A DNA stretch of 64,000 bases, from the NCBI RefSeq assembly GCF_964204865.1, contig NC_135252.1, forward strand, positions 15,273,383 to 15,337,382. The letters run 5' to 3'. The translations under genes were made by a program, and so were the position numbers. Shown piece after piece: positions 4,126 to 51,655 of the stretch. The notes below the pieces were generated by a model that made no database searches, was not told where the DNA came from, and worked only from the letters and a program-made list of their open reading frames with translations. How positions within the stretch are numbered: the first letter of the stretch is position 1; every line of letters begins with the position of its first letter. Source of the stretch: Styela clava. Lineage: Eukaryota > Chordata > Ascidiacea > Stolidobranchia > Styelidae.

Positions 4126-4512
4126 TGTACGACAGAATATTAAAAAAACGCTATTCTCTGTGATAAATATTGCTAAATGGTTCGAATCCATCGGAAATTA
4201 AAGCGAGGTCATACACTTTAAAACGTGTAGTACTAACATGAATACCCGTTTGCATTTATAGATGTCAAATAAACAATTTGCTATTATTAACAATTTCCGC
4301 AAGCGCCGATGGAAAAAATTATGATTATAAGAAAAAGTCGAAATGGGTATTCTATTGTTATTATAATACAGGAAATTGCAATCACTTAACTATACTTTCA
4401 AACAAATTTATATCGCAGTCGGTATCTGCGCAATGTCCATCAGAAGTTTTGAACTTTGTTCAACACTTGAGAACACTACCAAGAAACAGGTGGAAACTAA
4501 AAGTACAGAAGC

Positions 4513-4770
4513 GTTATTGGACACGTTTAGTGGCCATAACGATCGTTTCAAAATTTTGTTGTTATTGTTATTGTTATTTGTCTCCGTCTCCATTTTTAAA
4601 AAATCGCTTTTCTCTTCGAATACTGGACCAATTGCTTTGATATTTTCAGTGGTTAAAGATAAAATTTTTCTCCAGAAGGCTATTACTTTTTTTTTCGCTA
4701 TGACATCATCAAAATTATTGCCACTGAGTGGCGCTACGTGTCCATATATTTGAGCATAGCTCTCATGTTA
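4513..4770 (+). repeat. Dispersed repeat, family R1 (copy 1)
   Basis: Begins TTATTGGACACGTTTAGTGG, contains CCATAACGATCGTTTCAAAATT followed by a TTG/TTA microsatellite, then the conserved words TCTTCGAATACTGGACCAATTG and ATCATCAAAATTATTGCC, and ends near GTGTCCATATATTTGAGC. GGACACG at the start and CGTGTCC near the end are inverted, suggesting a MITE-like element. Other copies: 11663-12052, 51187-51293, 51397-51655; partial relics at 5555-5640 and 5970-6015. Confidence 0.75.
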
Positions 4771-13300: not shown

Positions 13301-13886
13301 CTCTAAGAGTACCCATTGCGATAAGAACATATATTATTTTAAAAGGTTGATTTTGAAGGTTCTCTCACGAATGTACTATCTGCCACCTAACTAATTCCAA
13401 AATAAATATATCGATTTATTTTTTATACCGCATATTAAAGCGCAAAATTTACTTTTCAGGAGCGCTGCACTATCTCGTGTTAACGATGCCGCCCGAGCAT
13501 CTCGTATTCGACGACGAAACAAAGCAGCTTGCTTGCAGCTTCGACTCATTTGCGCCTCCTTTACATTCGGATACGTTTTAGTTGCGGCATATTTAATATG
13601 GACTTCTGCTAATGAACCTGACCCAACAGATTGTCGATTAATGACAGTGGATTATTGGTTTGGTGTGACGTCGTATTTACTGCTCCGGATTTCAGAGTGT
13701 GTAAATCCGGTTATGTACAATTTAGGGTGCTCCGAAATGAGAGCGTCTACATTTGACTTTGTTAAGCATTCCGTTTTCAGGAGAGCTTCTCGTGTAGCAC
13801 GAGCACACAGTCAACAAAGAGAAAGAATATTTACAATTTTTCATTCCAGATCTGGGGCTCCACCAGAAGACTATATTGAAGAATAA
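7368..13886 (+). CDS. Class A (rhodopsin-like) G-protein-coupled receptor, orphan
   Basis: Five exons: 7368-7422, 9994-10248, 10874-11089, 12262-12430, 13460-13886. Together they encode 373 residues with all intron phases closing. Seven membrane segments can be followed. Landmarks are N47 in GN of helix 1, D75 (2.50) in SLCASD, C104 (3.25) paired with the loop-2 cysteine in PSCSI, a helix 5 proline in FYVPAV, and N314-P315-V-M-Y318 (NPxxY) in helix 7. R129 is exactly 25 residues after C104, as 3.50 should be, but its triplet is L-R-F instead of D/E-R-Y. Helix 6 (CASFTFGYVLVAAYL) has neither the CWxP tryptophan nor the proline. Intracellular loop 3 is basic (RASRIRRRNKAA). Exon 1 is the weakest part: it was chosen because its phase fits (C+AA) and it supplies a Met and an N-glycosylation site (N8-Y-T). 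It probably signals at the plasma membrane; the ligand is unknown. Confidence 0.88.
7423..9993 (+). other. Proposed long first intron of the GPCR gene
   Basis: This runs from a GTAAGC donor to a ctctag acceptor and is AT-rich. No other convincing gene is seen within it; the frames at 8150-8338 and 9701-9895 lack any recognisable feature. If exon 1 at 7368 is wrong, this is plain upstream intergenic sequence. Confidence 0.45.
10395..10515 (+). repeat. Dispersed repeat, family R3 (copy 1)
   Basis: Lies in a GPCR intron. The core GTGGCAAACCTAACGGGTAT, then TTTGATTA and a run of ACATATATTA, recurs with few changes at 38520-38615 in an ALDH intron (GTGGTAAACCTAATGGGCAT). Ends were not resolved. 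Confidence 0.6.
11663..12052 (+). repeat. Dispersed repeat, family R1 (copy 2)
   Basis: Sits in the third intron of the GPCR gene. It starts TTGGACACGTAGTGGACATA and shares CGATCGTTTCAAAATTTTG, the TTG/TTA run, TCTTCGAATACTG and the terminal CGTGTCCATATATTTGGGC. It is longer than copy 1 by an internal segment (about 11835-12005) with no obvious partner in the window. Confidence 0.75.
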
Positions 13887-15245: not shown

Positions 15246-17183
15246 TTACTCCGGATTGTATTCGCACAATGCTCCTCTTCTCAAAGCACCCCTTTGGGGA
15301 GAGTTGTGAACGAACGATTTCTTACTTGATAACCAATCAATGTTAATTGCCATCTGTGTAAATGATGAGTTCGAAGAAAAAGTTGTTGGAACTAGTGCCA
15401 TAGCAGCATTTGCAGTCGGTTCTCCCGTCGAATAACGTAGAATTTGCATCTGAATCGCATTCAAATATTTTATATTTTATAAATATATAAACATTGATTT
15501 TGTGACTAGAACGATACAATTTCATTTATTTGGAAAATTTCTGCGGGGTCTATGGGATTCGTTTTCACTTTGAAGTTTTGTGTGATGACGTCACTATGAG
15601 TAAAAATTGCGCACCGTGGGGCGGTTACACAATCGCATTTCAGCGATGCGGTAGTGAGCCAAGTAGGGCGTTTTTTGCTCAGATAGACTGTCGGTACTGC
15701 AGAAGAGTTGATACCGGTACTACTTCGTTTTGGTCTTCATAGCTATATGTTTAAACTTTTCTCGAATTTTGACTTCGAGCACAAAATCTTACTCACCTGA
15801 GTATCATAGGTCATTCCAAGCCAGGCCGTTGTGTATTGTACTTCTGGAGTCGGGAATTCATCTCGTAGATATTTTGCAACCTTCACATAATGTGCGCCAT
15901 CATATATATTTGCAAGTTGCCATCCAATTTGGGAACAAAGATTTGAGGCTGCAGCATACAATACGTCATCAGTATCATGCAGTATGGCTCGGAAACATTT
16001 ACCGTTGTGTGAAACATCTGATGGTAGAGGACATGAAAAACCTGTAACAAAGCTAATTATAATTAAGCATATCTAAAGAAAATTTGCAGAATTTGATTAT
16101 AAAAAGTATATAAATATATATATTAAATAAATTGTACAAATGCTTATTTATATCTAAAGTATTTAATTGGAATTCAACTTTGGGCCCAGCGAAACCAATG
16201 GAAGAAATATTATAAGAAAAGGAGAACGTATTCCATGCAAATTTTTTTTTTTAAAGAAAATGTTTTACGTACGTATTTTGTGCAAAATCGATACAATTTG
16301 CCAAATGTTGCAAAAATAAAATATCATATAATTTTTGATATTTTTTGTAACGTACAAGATATCTTCAAACTATTTTTGGATTGCAGATAGTATTAGGAGA
16401 ACAATAATAACAACAACTTAATAACAAAACGATCCATATCCAGCTACATTTCGTGTATATATTTCGTGTCCAATAACTATGTTAGAAAGAATTAAAAAAA
16501 AAAGAGGGTTGATCATCTACTACCATCATTAAAATTTGTCGAACTTTTGAAGATGCAATGCTTCGATATTTCTTCCAAATTTGCTTTCAATCTGTACATC
16601 TTTGTATTAAGTCCTAAATTCTCTGCGAAATATCAGGTATAAGTGTAATAAGAACCACAGTATATGTGAAACAACGTATGAGATTACATTTAGTCCGGAA
16701 TAATGAAATAAGCCAAGCGATAGATCAAGCTATAGTGGCCAACACCGACACAGTATAATGCAGTCAGGTGCAAATATTTATCGATGAAAATACAGCTTGT
16801 TTTTAGCAATTAAGCAGAGCGCAAGATTATGAACAAATCAACAATTTTCTATTTTAAATATACTAAAAAATATATTAAAATATAGAATATAAGAAAGCAT
16901 ATTATGGCAACTCACCATATGAGAAATTCATGGCCAGAGATCCAACTATTTGTTCATAAATAACCCACGGAGGAGGGGTTGCTTTTCCATATGGAAAAAC
17001 GTTTTTTCTGCGCCATTTTCGAGTTCGTTCAGAACGAGTGGAAAAAGAAAATGCCAGTCGAGCTTCCAGTACGAGTTCCCTGTATCCCCGATTTGGACAT
17101 AATAGAGATGCTATTCTTCTATCCTGTTGCTGGGATAAACTTGACGCTGACAACAACATCAAAAGCACGAGAGAGAACAACAT
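15246..17183 (-). CDS. Secreted C-type-lectin-like protein, paralogue A
   Basis: Four exons on the minus strand: 17183-16916, 16622-16524, 16041-15797, 15449-15246, encoding 271 residues. Exon 1 encodes a hydrophobic signal peptide (MLFSLVLLMLLSASSLS) and a basic segment with RKWRRK, followed by PPPWVIYEQIVGSL. Exons 3 and 4 form the C-type-lectin-like domain: CPLPSDVSHNGKCFR, LCSQIGWQLANIYDG, TTAWLGMTYD and the terminal GALCEY. Like its plus-strand paralogue it has six conserved cysteines. It lacks the EPN/QPD and WND calcium-site motifs and the inner cysteine pair of canonical sugar-binding domains, so carbohydrate binding cannot be assumed. Exon lengths 99, 245 and 204 match paralogue C exactly. 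It is likely extracellular. The start is the first Met that opens a signal peptide. Confidence 0.85.
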
Positions 17184-17873
17184 GTCTGAAATCCGACCTC
17201 TTTGAGTTTTGACAGCAACGGTTTATTGACCTAGGCACTAAACAACTAAAATGAAACAGTAAAATGAAATGCATTTATTCTATGAGCAAATAATATTCCG
17301 ATAGTATAGTATGTAAGCTAATCATAATGTTTCATCGCTATAATTCAGGTTGAACTGCCCGACTGTTTTAATGCAGCAATAAAAGGATCACAACTCTTTG
17401 ATCTTTCATCAACAATTACTGGGGATATATTCAACATCAGTAGCGGATTATAATTATGTTCAGCTGTCTCGGGGGAATAAATCACTGTTGTCGACAAACA
17501 TTTATAGTACAATTATAAGGAACGGGGTACACGTAAAATATATAATATCATTTACTTTTTGTTTTTCAAATTTTGTAAATGACTCACTTTACCAATTTAT
17601 TTCATGCTTATTGGTGATTATTTTATTTAGTGTTAAATTCATCAGTATCTTAGTTAGAAAAATTGTTGAAAATTGAAAATTATGCTCTTTTAGATAATAT
17701 CTGAGGGTATTGTATCAACAATACCAAATAAAACCTTCCCTGTTCATTCAAAAAAAATCTAATTCATTATTTTCTCGACGTTGATAAATCAAATAAAATT
17801 TGTGCTTTCGCGTTGGACGTGGAATAACGTCGATGGCCATATTTATAGGAAAAGCAGTTTTGATGAAGTTTCT

Positions 17874-18934
17874 CTATAAGGGCTCATATTCGCATAAAGC
17901 TCCCCTTCGTTCTGCATCTCCGGGAAAATTGTTAATAAAGGAACGGCGGTTGGGCACCGTATCGATAACTATGCCCATATGAATGTAGCTTGGTTCGGGT
18001 GTTAAAATCCATGGAATACTAGATTCATTCACGTTGGCCATCTCTGCACCAGAAGAATATCGAAGAACTTGTGCCTAAAAAAAGAAAATATTATACACGT
18101 AAAAACGGACGGAATACTTTAGCAATTTATTGTATTCCGAGCAGATGGTTAGGTTAACAAAATCGGAAATGAATCTTACTTCAGGATCCCACGTCATTCC
18201 AAGCCAAGCTGTCGCAAAATAACTTCTTGAGGATATAAAGTCGTTTCGTAAATATTTCCCAACTTTTGCAAAAAGAACACCATTATCAATATCAGCAAGC
18301 CTCCATCCTATATCATCACACATTTCAAATGCATCGTCAAATGTGATGTTGGTGCTTTTATGCAAGATTCCTCTATAGCATTTACCATTGTGAATAACAT
18401 CGGTTTCCTCGGGACATTCTATACAAAAAAATATCAATATTTGATTAGGAAATTGGGAATTGTATTTATATTTTTATGATTTATCAAAAAAACTTACCCA
18501 CTAATACTTGGCGTGTGTGGCGATGTGGCGAACACTTATTAAAGCAAAGAACAGACATTTCGTTAAATTCCGCGTTTAGTTTTTGTATCTCCTGCTCTAC
18601 TTGATTCAATCCTACAAAAAATTGTCACATTCAGGAAAAAATTTAATTCAATATTCCATGTTGGCAAATATCAAATATATTCAATATTCTTATTGGCAAA
18701 ACCATAAAAACATACGTTGAACATTCCAATTGTGAAATCGGTTTTGTATGCTTCAGCAATTTTTTCCAGATCAAGTAACCGCTTTTCTCTTAATTCTTCC
18801 CTTTTAGAACTTCTCTGTTTTTGAGGGATATTCTGTAATCTTTTGAAACGTCCATTGCGTGCTGTTTCTTTAGTACATATACCCTGCGCAACTACTAAAC
18901 TAACAATAAGTGCAATATACATTGGCCAACTCAT
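17874..18934 (-). CDS. Secreted C-type-lectin-like protein, paralogue B
   Basis: Four exons on the minus strand: 18934-18716, 18591-18498, 18418-18180, 18074-17874, about 250 residues. Signal peptide MSWPMYIALIVSLVVAQG, then a charged, probably helical segment (QRSSKREELREKRLLDLEKI). The lectin-like domain reads CPEETDVIHNGKCYRG, MCDDIGWRLADIDNG, TAWLGMTWDPE, RYSSG and GALCEYEPL-stop. The exon 1/2 junction is uncertain. A strong GTATGT donor at 18715 pairs in phase only with the AGCAG acceptor ending at 18592, while the more usual acceptor ending at 18613 needs a phase-1 donor such as the weak GTTTTG a few codons downstream. It is the most diverged of the three paralogues and has extra cysteines around exon 2. 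Its promoter region faces that of paralogue C. Confidence 0.82.
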
Positions 18935-20155
18935 TGTATTTAACTGTGTTTTTGTTAAGCTACATAAACAAACATCCTGTGGACGATATTATTTTCGATA
19001 ATAAATAGCGTTAATCTTTCTATGATCACAAGAAAACTTATTCATATCAATCTCTATAAATCATAACACCTAAAATTTAGCTGACGTACAGCTCAGCCTA
19101 AAACGAATTTGGAAATGGTTAATGCACTCTCTTGATCAAATATCAACATTAGGCATTGCGTGAGAAGACAAATCTATATTTTCTGTCTATCAACATGTTA
19201 TTTCATTTTTTACCACAAACACAACTAATTGTTGGTGTATTAAAGGTGCTATATTTTATGTCAATCATCAAAAACTAATTGTTGATGTGTTAATGGTGCC
19301 AAACTTTACATGAGAAATAAAATATATTAGCGCGCTCCTTTATCTTTTCTCAAGAGACTGTCGCATACTCTGTTTATTGAAGACACCTTTACATCAATCA
19401 CCAACAGTTAACTGTTTGTTGTTTGCTGTGTTCTTAGTACGCCACGATTCACAATTATGAATAAAGTACCGTGATGAAAGATTTAAAAGGGAATGCTGTG
19501 TTTTGATGTCGCTACTTTCACATCAGAGCAGGATCTAAAATAGAAAAGGAATTTCTCGTCAGCAGCAAATCACAGTAGTAATACAGAGGAAAACAAATTA
19601 AATCAGTAAAAAAATTACATATTCATATGTTCCTTCCGAGGAAGTTAGATAGACGTAATTTCTTGTTGCCAAATAGGTAATTTCAACATAGCACAAAGAG
19701 TTGTTAGCAGTGATAGAGTAAAAACGAAGGACTTTTGTTTAATATTGGTTGTTTATGTAGGCGCTTCTGAAGATATTATTTACAGTAATCTGTGTTTTTG
19801 CCAAGTTCTAGTTAATATGTATTCGACTTAAAAGCGCTCGTTTATTAGTAACAAAACATTGTCAGAAACCACCATGATCTACATAAGTGAACTCATAACT
19901 TAACAGCGCGTTAAAGAACTGAAAAAGCAAAATATTTAGCTAATGCGTCTGTTTTTTCGATACTCCGTTTCTAACCAACGTTTTTCCCACTTGAAGATAT
20001 CTAATCATGAATCTTATTGAGGTCGGTCTCACAACTCTTCTATTACAACTTTACAGTAGAAATGCATGCAGCTCATACTTTTTCTCTTTAAAGGGTGGAG
20101 ATAATTTACTAGTGTACAGTATTAATATATATTTTCATACATTGCAAATAGAGAT
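18935..20155. promoter_or_regulatory. Divergent intergenic region between lectin-like genes B and C
   Basis: Genes B (-) and C (+) start on either side, so this 1.2 kb presumably contains both promoters. It contains a short tandem repeat of about 50 bp (ACTAATTGTTGGTGTATTAA at 19223 and ACTAATTGTTGATGTGTTAA at 19273). No TATA box or initiator can be assigned with confidence. Confidence 0.4.
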
Positions 20156-21712
20156 ATGCGGCGCTTTATTTTGTTGTTCCTCGCCGTGACTGTGTTTTTA
20201 TGGGCAACGCCAGGCTTTCCATTGGATCAGGATGGAAGAAAAACATCTTTCTTATGTTTAAATGAAGAAAACAAGCCAAAATTGTTGGAATCTCCACTGA
20301 GACCATCCAATGATAATGTATTCAAACAAATTCGGAAATGGCGCAAGAAGATTAAAAAGTCTGGTAGAAGAAGACCAAAACTTCCTATTTGGATTGTTTA
20401 TGAAAGTATTGTGGAATCCCTACGCAACAAATTGACATATGGTACGAAAAAGGTTGATTGCATTATGTCCGTAATAAATTTTGCTTACAGCACTCGTGTT
20501 ATTTTGCAGACGAATACGAACTTAATGTGAGATTGTTGAAGTTGAAAGCAAACATAGAAGAAGCTTCAAAGTATTGCATCTCCAAGAATTCACAAACTCA
20601 TCAAAATGGTAAAAATATTTTTAGTGTTATTGACAATATACATAAGCTATTTTTTTGCCTATTAGTCAAGATTAGCTCGTGATCCCACATGCCCAACAAT
20701 CTCATTGCAAATTGATTTGCAGTGACGATTTGCCACTTTTGCTTGCAATTAGATCTGACTAACTATTGATGTAGGATACCAAAGTTTAGATCACATTGTT
20801 TGTGTCTAATCTCGATTATACTTCGTTATGCTCAATCACATCCTGAGCTTTCGATTATCTTTAAATGTTCAGATTTCCAATGTCCACTTCCAACTGATAT
20901 TTCCCACAATGGCAAATGTTTTCGCGGCATAATACACAAACTCGATAACGTTACGTATGATGTGGCATCGAAATTTTGCTCTAAAATTGGATGGAAGCTA
21001 GCGAATATTTATGATGGTACACATTATGTGAAGATAGCAAAGTATCTACGAAATGAATTTACAACTGCGGAGGCACTGGACACGACCGCCTGGCTTGGAA
21101 TGTCTCACGATCACCGAGTAAGTTGGCATATATCCAACAATGTTTACAAAAGTCGATAATACTGTACATATCGACTCTAGATACGTACAATATTTAGATT
21201 TAGACAGCTGATATCATGTAGCTAATTTAATGAACACGCCATCAGTGCTGGGGTAGCTTGAGTCATTGACCCGACTCCAGTTGGACTCAAGTCACTAAAT
21301 ATCAAACACTCGAATTGAATCGTGTCATCTAAATGAAACAACTCGGACTCGTCATCAACAAACCGCCAGTGATTGACTCGAGTTGGGGTTCGACTCGAGA
21401 ATCGGATGTCCCGTGACTCGACTTGGCTCGCAATTGAAGGACTTTACCCAAAACTAGTAGTTATCATTTCACGAACATAAGTTTATAGTTTAAATTTGAT
21501 GAATTCAGATGCAAACTCTGCGTTATTCATCCGGGGAACCTGCGACGAAAGTTGAGATGGCATTAGTACCGATCAATTTGTCCGTGAATGTTTCATTTGC
21601 CAAAATGGCAATTCACATTCATCGTTTATCGAGCGAAGATTCTTACGTTCATGATTCTCCAAGGGATAACGCTGTAGGAAATGGAGCACTGTGTGAATAT
21701 CCACTAGAGTAA
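20156..21712 (+). CDS. Secreted C-type-lectin-like protein, paralogue C
   Basis: Four exons: 20156-20441, 20510-20608, 20873-21117, 21509-21712, encoding 277 residues. The signal peptide MRRFILLFLAVTVFLWATPG is followed by a strongly basic segment (RKWRKKIKKSGRRRPK) and LPIWIVYESIVESL, which parallels paralogue A. Exon 2 gives LKANIEEASKYC. Exons 3-4 give CPLPTDISHNGKCFRG, FCSKIGWKLANIYDG, TTAWLGMSHD, RYSSGEP and GALCEYPLE-stop. The likely cysteine pairs are CP..GKC and FCSKIGW..ALCEY in the domain, with FLC..YC in the N-terminal part (inferred). The basic segment could be a processing site or a surface-binding patch. Introns are phase 1, 1 and 0, identical to paralogue A. Confidence 0.86.
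21243..21457 (+). mobile_element. R2 element in last intron of lectin-like gene C
   Basis: The left end CAGTGCTGGGGTAG and right end CTTTACCCAAAACTAG form a rough inverted repeat of the CAGTGTTGGG type. The interior is rich in ACTCG/CGAGT words and shares GTCATCTAAATGAAA and ACCGCCAGTGA with the other copies. No clear target duplication. Confidence 0.6.
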
Positions 21713-22792: not shown

Positions 22793-25700
22793 TTAGTTAT
22801 AATAGCCCGGCAGTGACGACCAATGGACCCATGGGAATCCGTTGTTACATTGTTTATCCCATTTGTCTAAAAGGTTTTCGTATCTGGCGTCGACCCAAAA
22901 CATGATGTAAAAATTGCACATTTCATCCGTGTGTCTGTATCCAATACTTGTCGGAACGTTTCGAAAGTTATCCATGACACATCTTGCTGCCTAAAAGTTG
23001 AATACAATTGAACGTTAAGTACAAATAAGAGAAATCTATATATTAAACCTTAGTTTATGTGCCACTTGTTTTTAAATTCGTCGTAAATTTCACTTAGCAT
23101 TAATGCGTGCTTTAACTATAGTTATGTGAACGCAGAGAAATTAATGTTAGACATCTGCAGCCGCAATTCTACATTGCAATTCCCTTTTCCCGGATACTTT
23201 TCGCCACTTGAGTCATTGTAGGTGTTTGTAGAAGTGAAAATTCATCGAGTTGAAATCCACCATTATCACTTTTTACTATTTTTTATGATAAATTGGTTGA
23301 AGGTTGACTTTAAAAATGGTTCGTTTTATTTTTAAACTATGTTGGATTTATATATTATTTATGTATTCACGTGGTTTTGAAACGTCGGTTAATTAATTGT
23401 TAGTACGTTATTAAAAGAACTAGTTCCCTTTAATTTCGTAAAAAGGGGAAGAAAAACCTTTTTCATATATTGACAATATATGTCATACTTACAAGTATAT
23501 CATTATATCTTATTGTCATGTTCTTCATTGTAACTGGATAAAATGCTTCTGGTAACTGAGGACTTTTTGCACCAATCAACGTCCATTCTGCATCGCGAAT
23601 TCTGAACCCAAGAACTTCGACACCGAGTGCGTGAGCGTGAGTGCGAAAGGCGAAAGGATGAATAGAGTAAGGTTGCTTGTACCTGAAAAGTAATGAACTT
23701 TGATATTCTTCATTGTGTTTTCCACATTATTCGTTAGTTCTGTGTCAAGATTCGGTAACAAAAATATTTGAATATATTAGTGATAGGGCAAATTCACTCA
23801 CACTTCTAACACGGAAGAAAAATATCCTATAAACTTTCGGGGGCATTTCATATTGAAACTACATTACAAAGTTAGATTGGGTCTAAAAATTATATAAAAT
23901 AATAATCGAGCTGATTTTTTTAAACAAATTCCACATTTGACAATCTTGTCATTAGGTCTAGATTACTGTTTCACAAAACTTTTGTGCACATTTTAATGAT
24001 TTTTTTTTCCTATAATATATATATCACCATCGGCAATTATATATCGTTATTGGTAGTTGTTCATTTATCTGAGACAGCATTATATGGCGTATATTATGTA
24101 ATAAAATTTTTCAAAACCTAAATTCGTTGCAATTTTAATATATGACAAGAGTCTTATGGGAAGAATACAGAAACTAAGAACTGATAAATAATGTCTTTGT
24201 GATACCATAACTTCAAATAAAGACTATCTACTTGCCACGTTACATATCAATCAGCTTCAAAATTGAGTGTTATTGTAATTAACAGGAAAATGATTTTATA
24301 TTAAATGTGCGCACATTACCTGCAAGATATATCAAAGTTCCGTGTCTTATGTGGGGGAACCGTTCCCATTGATGACGCTAAAACGTAGACTCCAGCCAAA
24401 TAAGGTTTTCTTTCATATGTTGAAATCACACTCACTGCAGAATGATCTTTAAATCCTCCTGAAATGACCAAAAAGTGTTACAGTGGAAAGTTGGGGGTAA
24501 TTTTGCAATGTTTGAATAGATTTTTAAAAATTATAGATAAATTTGTCGATATTTTATCGAACTGTTACTCCTTGCAAACTAAACTCTGAGTTTGCGGTCG
24601 GTAAACAGAATTTTTATTCATATTCACAAGCTGGCAAATATGATAAACACACATGTTCGTCGCGGTTTCAAACATTTACGCTAGGTGCAATCTGCAAAAA
24701 GTGAGTAAAAAGTTTATACATTTGGTCAGATTGATGATGCATATGTGCAAAATCTTCACTATTTTGGACAGTGTTAAAAATTTCAAGTCCAATATTGACT
24801 CGGCACAAGTAAGCATTCATTGAAAATTGACTCGAATCATCGAAATGAAATGACTCGGACTCATCATCAGCTGCCCGCCAGTGAGATTTAACTTAGATAT
24901 TGACTCGGTTGGCTAGTGACTCTACTTGATTCGCGACTCTGGTCTGGGTTCTGGGACTTCTACCCAACACCGATTCTGCGTATGGGAAAAGTTTGAATAA
25001 ACTTAATGTAACCCAACCACAAAGCTAAACCTTGCATACAAGCACTTTTAACAATTAAATCTTCCCTAATCCTACCTCTGAACACACTGGCGCTTTTGTA
25101 ATGGACTTGCAACACAAAATATTGTATTCCTGTTCCAGGTCCAATTTTAAATCCAACATCCTTTGGTAATTTGAAGAGCGGGGCGTCTTTTGCCCACGCC
25201 CACATTATTGTTGGAGGACCACCACTTCCGCATAAAGGTGCATTTGGAAAACCGTCAGAGTTCTTCTTGGCTCCTTCCATTACACCGCCACAGTTCCTTC
25301 AAAGCATAATAAAATATATATAAACTATCATGTTCCAGGAGCTAACGTATTTGGAAATTTTTCATTCCATCTGTTTGAAACCCTAAATTCTCTATCAAGG
25401 GGGCTAATTTTAGATATATATATTCGGAACTTTGCGTACGCAAGGAATAACTGATGAGCCATACTCGTAGCTGGCATTTCGGTAAACACGTCGCGGGCTG
25501 ATTTGATTTTAATTACAGTCAAAGCGAATGCTTGTAAATATCGATTAAACCTGTTCCAAAATATAACTAATTAATTTTTCATAACAGAAATTTTCTCCTC
25601 GCGACGTTGATTCTTTTTTCCGATGAAAGGCATCCGTAAAGCTATCCCAGAGGGAAATAAAAACGTTATTAGGAGTTTTCGTTGACTAAATATAAATGTG

Positions 25701-46049: not shown

Positions 46050-46667
46050 TCAATTGTTTATTTCGGCCATGTAGCTGTCCAACTCAGCATTCATTGCACC
46101 TTTTGTTTTAGTCATATAACTGTCAAGTTGTTCATCAAGTTTGTCTTTGTCTGCAGGTTCTCGTCGATTAGCTCCACCTCTTCCTTGACGACCTCCCCGA
46201 CCTCTGCCACGACTTATGCCACGCCCTCTACCTCTCATACCCGTTCCACGCCCTCTACCAGTTCTCGTAGGACGAATAAATCCACGTCTTCCTGGATTGC
46301 GGCCTCTATTTAACGAATTGCCGCGAGGACTGGGAAACCCTCCACGACCACGACCACCTCGAACGAACTGTCCACGGCTTTGAAACCTTCCGCCTCTTAT
46401 TCCCCGTCTTCCTCGTGCTGGAGGACTTCCTAATCTGTCACGAATCGACACCGGCTTATTATCAAGCGCAGCAGCAACTGCTGGCCGTCTTTCCATTTGT
46501 TGTGCGAGTCGACGATTCTTTTCACTTGCCATTCTCTCATTGGACATTTGAGCTCGCACAGTTTGGGAAGTTGTTCGTTGTGTTTTCATGATCGTAGAAA
46601 AACGGTCATTAAGACTGACCTTGGTTGAGCTTTTGAGAACGATTTTGGCAGGTGGGTTGGACGCCAT
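46050..46667 (-). CDS. CHTOP: Chromatin target of PRMT1 (CHTOP) homologue, intronless
   Basis: A single open frame of 205 codons. CHTOP is a nuclear RNA-binding protein methylated by PRMT1 that works with the TREX mRNA-export complex. The N-terminus (KIVLKSSTKVSLNDRFSTIM) and NRRLAQQMERRPAVAAAL match the conserved N-terminal region. The middle, roughly residues 83-168, is dense in RG/RGG (substrate for arginine methylation). The C-terminus has two LDSYM motifs (LDEQLDSYMTKTKGAMNAEL), the FOP-duplication signature. It is somewhat shorter than the vertebrate protein. No intron interrupts it. No genomic poly(A) tract follows, so a retrocopy origin is not shown. The Met is at the conserved start. 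Confidence 0.93.
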   Translation of the reverse strand: MASNPPAKIVLKSSTKVSLNDRFSTIMKTQRTTSQTVRAQMSNERMASEKNRRLAQQMERRPAVAAALDNKPVSIRDRLGSPPARGRRGIRGGRFQSRGQFVRGGRGRGGFPSPRGNSLNRGRNPGRRGFIRPTRTGRGRGTGMRGRGRGISRGRGRGGRQGRGGANRREPADKDKLDEQLDSYMTKTKGAMNAELDSYMAEINN

Positions 46668-47421
46668 TCTACTTCTGGAGTATACGCCAAAAATAACTGG
46701 ATAATAAGTAACAAAACTCTAATCGTCACTAAACTATCTCATTCCAAGCGGGTCAATAATTCAACTTTAAATCTTACAGTACACACAATTCTGCAAAATA
46801 TTGAGAAAATAAATCTTGTCCAAGTAAATACACAATAATATCTGGCAATGAATAAAATTAGTATAATAATTAGGCTATATATATATATAAACAAATCTTC
46901 TGCAAAAAATAGAGCGAAATTTTTTCATTTTTTGCCGCTATTCTAAGCAAGGCTCCATTTTTTCGATTATTTTGATTAGGCCAGATTCGTTTCCCAGAAC
47001 AATTTTGCAATATTGGTATCAGTAATTATAAGTCCGTAAGTGGCTGAAATTATTTGAGATTTAATGAGATTCCCAATGATTCCATGATTATAATGCAAAC
47101 TTAGCAAAGAAAACAATGTGGTAATTTTATGAATAAATCAATGACATCTGCAAACATGATGTCATCACTGCTGACTTTTCTAATTCATTAATCAATGTAT
47201 GCCAAAATCACTCTCATTTGATTATACTTGCACTTGCTCTCGGAGAGCCCGTAAAAGTGACAGACATCAAACATGGTAATCTCAGCCGACATATTCAGAA
47301 TAAGTAGACGATGAAACCTCACAACGAAATCTCATTAATGCACAATTTTCGCGTTTTTCATCTCTACTATAAAAGTAACATCTGAACATATAATAATCAT
47401 TGGTGCCAACTTACTGGCAAT
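46668..47421. other. Intergenic upstream of CHTOP
   Basis: This should hold the CHTOP promoter. AT-rich with no clear core element and no supported gene. Confidence 0.45.
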
Positions 47422-50102: not shown

Positions 50103-51083
50103 AATGTGGTGGCACGATCTTCACATTTGAATAACAATAAAAACAGAAAAATAGAACTGTAGAATGGGATTCAGCATTCTCAATTCAAGTATTCTAGAAT
50201 AGAAAATTATTCTACATCCCTACACTCACTCAATCCAACACTTGCCACCTACCTATCCATGTAATCTCAACAAAATTTCCTTCAAATGGCTCCAGGCTGG
50301 TCCACCCGTCTGAGATTGAACCATAGACAGATAGAAGTAGACTATTTAAATTTTATATTTGCCAATGGCCGAATACTACCGGTACTGTACTAGGTGTGGT
50401 ATAATAAAAAATTATCTTAGTTTACTCATATCTTCACATTTCATATTTTTGTTTTAACTATACTGGCATCGCCCCCGAGGTAAATAATCCTAAAAATGGT
50501 GTGAGTACTGTTGAACATTTTAAGCATCAGAGCTTTCGAATTTCAAAGTGACTACGGTACCGGTATTTGTCGAATTTGCAGCACGAGCGCTAGCATTGCG
50601 GATATCCCCAACCCTTGACCCTATAATATTTTCCAATATTGAAATATTTAGAGAGAGATTTTTTTTTCCGACCAAAACCAAAATAGAATAGCAGTCATCT
50701 TATAATAAAAATAATAACAAGTGATAAATTAGTTTGGTATAGACAGGAGGGAGTGATACGACCAAAAGGCCATCAAAGTCAACCCCCCCCCCCTCCAAGT
50801 CAAGCTATTGTTTAAGGTTTACAATTTCAGATGACTAAATATTAAGGTAGAACATTCTATAGTTTAAATTATATTCACAAAATGGAAGAATAAAATAGGT
50901 GAGGAGTATGCTAGAGCGAATCATTCATATTTGTGTTTGTGGAGAGGGGTTTCAAAATTTAAGACATTCCAAAGGGTCTCCACATTCAAACAGGGATTTC
51001 ACAGATACCATGTTTCACCAAAAATAAGACCTAGCGCGAATTTTGAAGATGATTTTAGTACAAGCCATCCCTATAAAATAAGA
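50103..51083. other. Intergenic, no gene seen
   Basis: AT-rich sequence with a poly-C tract (about 50785-50793, CCCCCCCCC) and scattered TACCGGTA words. No supported gene. Confidence 0.5.
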
Positions 51084-51655
51084 CCTAGTCAACAACGTAA
51101 ATTTTTTTTTGACATTGTCGATAGCTAGCAAGAAATCTCTCCTACACGTTTTAATTGATAATCTATGTTTTGCAGTTATTTTGAACAAAAACGTGTTATT
51201 GGACACGTTTAGTGGCCATAACGATCGTTTCAAAATTTTGTTGTCATTGTTATTTTCTTTCGTCATTATCATTAAAAATCGCTTTTCTCTTCTCCTAGTC
51301 AACAACGTGAATTTTTTTTGACATTGTCGATAGCTAGCAAGAAATCTCTCCTACAAGTTTTAATTGATAATCTATGTTTTGCAGTTATTTTGAACAAAAA
51401 CGTGTTATTGCACACGTTTAGTGGCCATAACGATCGTTTCAAAATTTTGTTGTTTTTGTTATTTTCTTTCGTCATTATCATTAAAAAAGCGCTTTTCTCT
51501 TCGAATACTGGGCCAATTGCTTAGAAATTTTCAGTGGTTAAAGATAAAATTTCTCTCCAGAAGGCTATTACTTTTTTTTCGCTATGACGTCATCAAAATT
51601 ATTGCCATTGGGTGGCGTGTCCATATATTTGAGCATAGCCCTCTTGTTTATAAGT
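51084..51655 (+). repeat. R1 element partly duplicated in tandem (210-bp unit)
   Basis: The unit CTAGTCAACAACGT...TCTCTT starts at 51084 and again at 51294. The two copies are nearly identical over about 200 bp, so the duplication is recent. Each contains the R1 head (ACGTGTTATTG, CACACGTTTAGTGGCCATAA, CGATCGTTTCAAAATTTTG). Only the second continues through the R1 tail to GTGTCCATATATTTGAGCAT, at about 51650. Confidence 0.8.

Follow-up and report, generated by a model that had tools for sequence, protein, structure and literature searches.

Three neighbouring genes of Styela clava encode putative collectin-derived proteins that lack a collagen stalk and sugar-binding motifs

A 64,000-nucleotide stretch of the genome of the ascidian Styela clava (NCBI RefSeq assembly GCF_964204865.1, contig NC_135252.1, positions 15,273,383 to 15,337,382 of the forward strand; hereafter the window) contains three related genes, here called A, B and C, whose products end in a lectin-like domain. 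A preliminary description of the window regarded the N-terminal part of these proteins, encoded by exons 1 and 2, as a module of no familiar kind. What is this N-terminal part, and where do the three proteins come from? We think it likely that A, B and C are secreted, collectin-derived proteins that have lost the collagen stalk and form disulfide-linked oligomers whose sugar-blind heads recognise ligands other than sugars. Collectins are lectins of the blood, with mannose-binding lectin (MBL) as an example, and start the lectin pathway of complement. The supposedly unfamiliar N-terminal module is probably not new: in the order of its parts, in its place and in its phase, exon 1 corresponds to the N-terminal exon that collagen-bearing, collectin-like genes of this genome carry.

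The cluster spans positions 15246-21712 of the window, exactly as first described, with A and B on the minus strand and C on the plus strand. Each gene has four exons, separated by introns of phases 1, 1 and 0 with GT-AG junctions. The exons of A (268/99/245/204 nt) encode 271 amino acids, those of B (232/114/239/201 nt) 261 and those of C (286/99/245/204 nt) 277; the equal lengths of exons 2-4 and the identical phases earlier reported for A and C were thus recovered. Re-reading likewise bore out the six matching cysteines of A and C and, ahead of the domain in both proteins, the RKWR[RK]K segment and the P-x-W-x-x-Y-E-x-I-V motif. B had been described as a diverged gene of the same layout, and so it proved: it has the same six cysteines plus Cys75 and Cys104, and is 41% identical to A and 39% to C, with A and C 50% identical (BLAST-aligned parts only). 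The predicted features are listed below by window position; the signal-peptide-like N-termini were judged by eye.

16916-17183, minus strand: gene A exon 1, with signal peptide, Cys29, basic RKWRRK, PPPWVIYEQIV helix, phase-1 end and donor ATG/GTGAGT
17004-17021, minus strand: gene A basic segment RKWRRK, at the place of the collagen stalk by alignment
16524-16622, minus strand: gene A exon 2 (99 nt), probable neck helix with Cys112 at its end
15797-16041, minus strand: gene A exon 3 (245 nt), first half of the C-type-lectin-like domain (CTLD), with C0, C0', C1 and WLG
15246-15449, minus strand: gene A exon 4 (204 nt including stop), second half of the CTLD, with GALCEY as C4
18703-18934, minus strand: gene B exon 1, with signal peptide, basic segment containing REKR, LDLEKI helix and uncertain donor
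18498-18611, minus strand: gene B exon 2 (114 nt), containing Cys100, Cys104 and heptads of a putative neck helix
18180-18418, minus strand: gene B exon 3 (239 nt), first half of the CTLD
17874-18074, minus strand: gene B exon 4 (201 nt including stop), second half of the CTLD
20156-20441, plus strand: gene C exon 1, with signal peptide, Cys34, basic segment, LPIWIVYESIVESL helix and phase-1 end
20333-20380, plus strand: gene C basic segment RKWRKKIKKSGRRRPK, at the place of the PGKRGPKG-type collagen of relatives by alignment
20510-20608, plus strand: gene C exon 2 (99 nt), probable neck helix with Cys118 at its end
20873-21117, plus strand: gene C exon 3 (245 nt), first half of the CTLD
21509-21712, plus strand: gene C exon 4 (204 nt including stop), second half of the CTLD, with GALCEY

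The first donor of B is the sole uncertain point of the three gene models. The frame stays open only through the weak donor TATG/GTTTTG, which gives exon 1 as 18934-18703; the alternative AAC/GTATGT (end 18716) looks better but breaks the reading frame. Between A and C, nonsynonymous divergence (dN) was 0.36 and synonymous divergence (dS) 1.05 by NG86, and 0.37 and 1.44 by YN00, with a dN/dS of ~0.35. Because dN is well below dS by both methods, the two proteins look constrained and their frames kept by selection, and chance is not a reasonable account. A tblastn search across the window found no fourth copy of A, B or C, and the predicted RNA fold of C's short first intron showed nothing notable (z 0.30).

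The C-terminal half of the proteins was compared with lectins of the same genome. A profile built from 28 members of the wider family described below aligned with seven CTLDs (hhalign) at 96.6% probability and E 5e-10 over 106 columns, and C1 was kept in 15/15 aligned rows. A sequence search of the PDB returned no relative of weight (best E 0.09). C..IGW, WLGM and GALCEY are invariant across A, B and C, the first and last having been pointed out before. On this homology we assign the C-terminal halves of A, B and C to the CTLD superfamily, with a predicted C-type-lectin fold. We take the cysteines of CP....HNGKC to be the optional N-terminal hairpin pair and those of C..IGW and GALCEY to be the outer pair; two of the six cysteines therefore remain, those of exons 1 and 2. 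The motifs EPN, QPD and WND were found in none of the 28 members, and no member had a cysteine inside exon 4 ahead of the last one, as an inner C2-C3 disulfide would need. What had been reported missing from the trio is thus missing from all 28 members examined; because none has EPN, QPD or WND, the loss of the sugar motifs appears to be a trait of the whole family and not of the trio. Judged by motif, the three proteins fall outside the sugar-binding C-type lectins. As a separate observation, locus L004 (G000:C8:11696392-11699739) has a CTLD with the basic run RQNRKKRKRRRED where EPN is expected.

The real surprise was the size of this divergent family. With exon 3 of C as the query, at least 135 exon-3-like places were found in the genome, the trio's three included (140 matches minus five that were exons 1, 2 or 4 of window genes), and exon 3 of a distant member found at least 150. 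The union of the two lists holds at least 242 places, trio included, on 15 contigs; stop codons mark a few places of both lists as possible pseudogenes. Because none of the 79 places checked among the 242 lay within 600 bases of any of 149 Lectin_C places, the family is not the ordinary lectin set found again. Its members have splice phases in common, at the exon 3 acceptor in 26/28, the exon 3 donor in 28/28 and the exon 4 acceptor in 28/28. These matches indicate that the genome carries a very large family of altered collectins, the trio among them, and support the earlier suggestion of a secreted, lectin-like, lineage-specific expansion, on a scale far beyond three genes. Some members (G000:C18:46570, C16:105270, C14:261135, C3:25564326 and C13:22424974) lie about 20-260 kb from contig ends and are perhaps subtelomeric.

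Many of these relatives offer a direct comparison for exon 1 of the trio. In L042 and L046, the upstream open frame reads signal peptide, Cys, Gly-X-Y repeats and VDYE-x-[IV], with a phase-1 donor after it; L039 has the collagen and VDY segment too, read there in a separate frame. A query with this collagen-bearing piece found at least 150 places in the genome, the weak tail of which (E up to 8) may include ordinary collagens. At 48 of the 242 exon-3-like places, a collagen exon precedes exon 3 by 0.2-5 kb on the same strand; one follows it at 4 places, and at none does one lie on the opposite strand (20, 0 and 0, respectively, for the first exon-3 list alone, n=135); conversely, exon 3 was found downstream of 48 of the at least 150 collagen places. 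We read 20 collagen exons (L054-L073) by eye. All but L062 begin with a signal peptide and Cys (19/20), and 16/20 have a candidate phase-1 donor just past the helix. They contain 6-14 Gly-X-Y triplets, as counted by a scan that required at least 4, with PGK in 17/20 and PGKxGP in 9/20; the variable residue of PGKxGP is Arg in 8 exons and Ile in 1.

A, B and C appear to retain the signal peptide, Cys and [Y/L]E-x-I helix of this exon, with a basic segment in place of collagen. In the alignment, SGRRRPK of C and YGKATPP of A occupy the place of PGKRGPKG in the relatives, and IVYESI of C and VIYEQI of A that of VDYExI. Neither a Gly-X-Y collagen domain nor the MASP motif (Hyp-Gly-Lys-X-Gly-Pro with X aliphatic, as a passage of PMC2592599 gives it) was found in A, B or C. 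The cysteine ahead of the stalk is Cys29 in A and Cys34 in C; Cys20 of B, near the end of the signal peptide, is an unsure counterpart. When the window was scored with a profile of the post-collagen helix (22 segments, 19 non-redundant), 15/52068 positions scored as high as C or higher and 67 as high as B in its aligned register, which is support for the exon-1 match, not proof of it. A new N-terminal domain had also been considered, and was dropped once collagen-bearing relatives with an identical exon end turned up.

Collagen-bearing members also occur in arrays of their own. Eight near-identical members form a tandem array with a unit of ~6.96 kb (G000:C18:16032045-16082414; L022-L030, L042), and a ninth copy lies at C1:25784083. 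Dense clusters of collagen exons are found at G000:C6:13267165-13603594 and C6:23137822-23312266. Because nearly all of these C6 exons are without a match in either exon-3 list, the heads of these clusters may be more divergent still.

Was collagen lost by the trio or gained by its relatives? In a tree of 28 members and three outgroup CTLDs, A, B and C formed one clade (support 100/99) inside the family, which makes loss of the collagen stalk in the A/B/C line the simplest account. Collagen-bearing members are spread over several branches and also occur in the group closest to the root; resolution at the base of the family is poor. A topology holding the collagen-bearing rows and the outgroup together was rejected (p 0.002), as was one joining A, B and C to the outgroup (p 0.024, in a test chosen after the tree had been seen). 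Collectins with GRPGKRG collagen occur in the same genome, namely L001 and L008 (WSDG, EPN) and L003 (WSTG, EPS); in L001 and L003, which belong to the outgroup of the tree, the collagen begins with this motif. The tree excluded near-identical C18 copies, L028 (internal stop), L038 (identical to L037) and L077, L080 and L081, in which exon 3 or 4 was incomplete or not found. L015 was counted as collagen-bearing despite a TGA within its collagen exon, and L036 and L037 were labelled collagen-free from ~1.5 kb of upstream sequence, so that collagen may have been missed. By descent, A, B and C are on this evidence collectin-derived, though not collectins in the strict sense, because the collagen domain is absent.

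Several observations weigh against descent from a collagen-bearing collectin. Pfam Lectin_C scores were 17.7 bits for C, 13.1 for A and 12.6 for the head of B, all below the cut-off of 22.6, and full-length B had no Lectin_C match at E 1. The neck of full-length B matched zf-Tim10_DDP at 15.0 bits against a cut-off of 22.3, which we took as chance. Direct sequence similarity of exon 1 to the collagen exons is weak, above all for A, and a genome search with exons 1-2 of A was clear only for A and C (C at E 9e-6). The helix profile was exceeded or equalled for A at 301/52068 window positions (0.6%); B was scored in two registers, of which the non-aligned one was poor (37850/52068 positions score as well); and the profile segments were chosen by a [VN][DN]Y pattern, with L069, which has no VDY motif, excluded. 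Four of the 20 collagen exons (L054, L055, L059 and L069) have no phase-1 donor at the expected place. Exon 2 looks like a neck helix, but its coil scores are suggestive only, as shuffled sequences equalled the heptad score of A in 52/1000 cases, of B in 5/1000 and of C in 133/1000. Finally, the upstream open frame of L041 (G000:C13:12525000-12534000) encodes a signal peptide followed by a stretch that is long, rich in Asp and Glu and free of Gly-X-Y, with a neck-like coil frame after it, upstream of exon 3.

Because of this acidic frame, exon 1 may be swapped whole and stalks may vary between members, and exon shuffling is the main rival explanation. An unrelated basic exon 1 would have replaced the collagen exon, and the Y-E-x-I helix match would be convergence; the modest helix-profile score of A fits such a replacement. 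Set against it are the common order of signal peptide, Cys, linker and [Y/L]E-x-I helix, the phase-1 end of exon 1, which in A and C falls where it does in L042, in L046 and in 16/20 collagen exons, and the alignment of SGRRRPK and YGKATPP with PGKRGPKG. We consider shuffling unlikely.

A further alternative is that the basic segment is a processing site, at which a furin-type cut frees the neck and head and perhaps a cationic peptide. B contains REKR and RFKR (R-x-K-R), and A and C contain RKWR. There is, however, no full R-x-[KR]-R site in A or C, and a cut at the basic segment would detach the N-terminal Cys, which makes processing improbable. An independent new folded module closed by an FLC-YC disulfide and joined to a lectin-like head is very improbable: two conserved cysteines do lie outside the head in all three proteins and exons 1-2 have no Pfam match above cut-off, but exon 1 of the relatives encodes collagen along with an N-terminal Cys, the second Cys of the trio sits at heptad position a in the best register of all three proteins (in A and B when that register is extended past the scored segment), and a passage of PMC2592599 describes the N-terminal cysteines of MBL as forming interchain bonds. 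By this MBL precedent, interchain bonds at the two N-terminal cysteines are more likely than the internal FLC-YC link of the preliminary description.

Under collectin descent, the ancestor would have had a signal peptide, an N-terminal Cys, a short collagen stalk, a helix, a neck and a C-type-lectin-like head. The Ca2+/sugar site and inner disulfide would have been lost earlier, at the level of the whole family, and in the A/B/C lineage a short basic linker would be all that remains of the Gly-X-Y stalk, with the other parts kept. Chains may associate through the neck helix and through interchain disulfides at the two N-terminal cysteines, on the precedent of collectins. Sugar binding is not expected because the Ca2+ ligands are missing, and the heads may instead bind protein or charged ligands by avidity; MBL-type MASP recruitment is not expected because there is no collagen. 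Possible roles are those of agglutinins or opsonins, or else of decoys, regulators or competitors of collagen-bearing paralogues, probably in defence of blood, gut or tunic. We infer these binding and immune steps by analogy, by which the immune role raised in the preliminary description is plausible.

A wider reading is more doubtful, and we offer it tentatively. On this reading, the family would be a repertoire of a few hundred collectin-like proteins, all secreted and sugar-blind, encoded in tandem clusters on 15 or more large contigs and equipped with interchangeable stalks (collagen, acidic or basic). Such a repertoire could provide diversified recognition of non-self, or allorecognition, built on the collectin frame, with A, B and C as collagen-free, MASP-uncoupled regulators or competitors of the collagen-bearing members. 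A collectin frame copied hundreds of times, with sugar motifs lost and collagen lost in places, provides a test of how recognition proteins are uncoupled from proteases, and of whether an innate repertoire broadens by gene number instead of rearrangement.

The surroundings of the cluster showed no tie to lectins. They include exons of a PAM-like copper type II monooxygenase (window 22796-25298, minus strand), a 7tm_1 receptor exon below cut-off (13395-13883, plus strand) and a gene with a Friend-of-PRMT1 domain (46053-46718, minus strand). Two open frames at 4408-4767 and 51015-51350 (minus strand) share the peptide ILKRSLWPLNVSNN and probably belong to a dispersed repeat. Elsewhere in the genome, L084 and L085 (G000:C4:25050600-25052000 and 25266300-25267700) resemble the PPPW..[YF]E of A (E 0.03 and 1.8); they have no match nearby in the two exon-3 lists and are possible relics of an A-like exon 1. 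A GH6 exon at G000:C9:16179895 (E 1.5e-6) fits the tunicate cellulose synthase, which has a GH6 domain, and a search of the assembly for mitochondrial COX1 gave no match.

How do A, B and C compare with known systems? With vertebrate MBL and other collectins they share the general plan of N-terminal Cys region, stalk region, neck helix (putative in A, B and C) and C-terminal CTLD. They differ in having no Gly-X-Y stalk, MASP motif, Ca2+/sugar motif or inner disulfide, and in a head split over two exons at a phase-0 intron. Their collagen-bearing kin (L042, L046, L054-L073) resemble them in exons 3-4, splice phases, the [Y/L]E-x-I helix and the loss of sugar motifs, but keep Gly-X-Y triplets where A, B and C have a basic linker. 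In the passages returned by a literature search, we found no description of a tunicate collectin family as divergent as this one.

Individual ascidian proteins offer closer points of comparison. The glucose-binding lectin (GBL) of Halocynthia roretzi, a CTLD protein, is said in a passage of PMC514892 to be without a collagen domain; contrary to this, a figure legend in PMC9835746 puts MBL/GBL among collagen-bearing proteins, and an excerpt of that article contrasts collagen-bearing with coiled-coil lectins as possible starters of complement. An H. roretzi C-type lectin interacts with MASP, according to a passage of PMC5465252. Compared by description only, GBL is named for glucose binding, whereas A, B and C have no sugar motif. 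Styela plicata, a styelid like the source of A, B and C, has collectin-like proteins, likewise compared by description: one is called a collagenous lectin in a title among the references of PMC5465252, and secretion of a collectin-type protein is stated in a passage of that paper to rise in inflammation. A passage of the same paper describes Ciona CiCD94-1 as a CTLD protein without carbohydrate-binding capability that is thought to bind peptides, and groups it with a type II membrane CD94-like protein, whereas the N-termini of A, B and C are signal-peptide-like.

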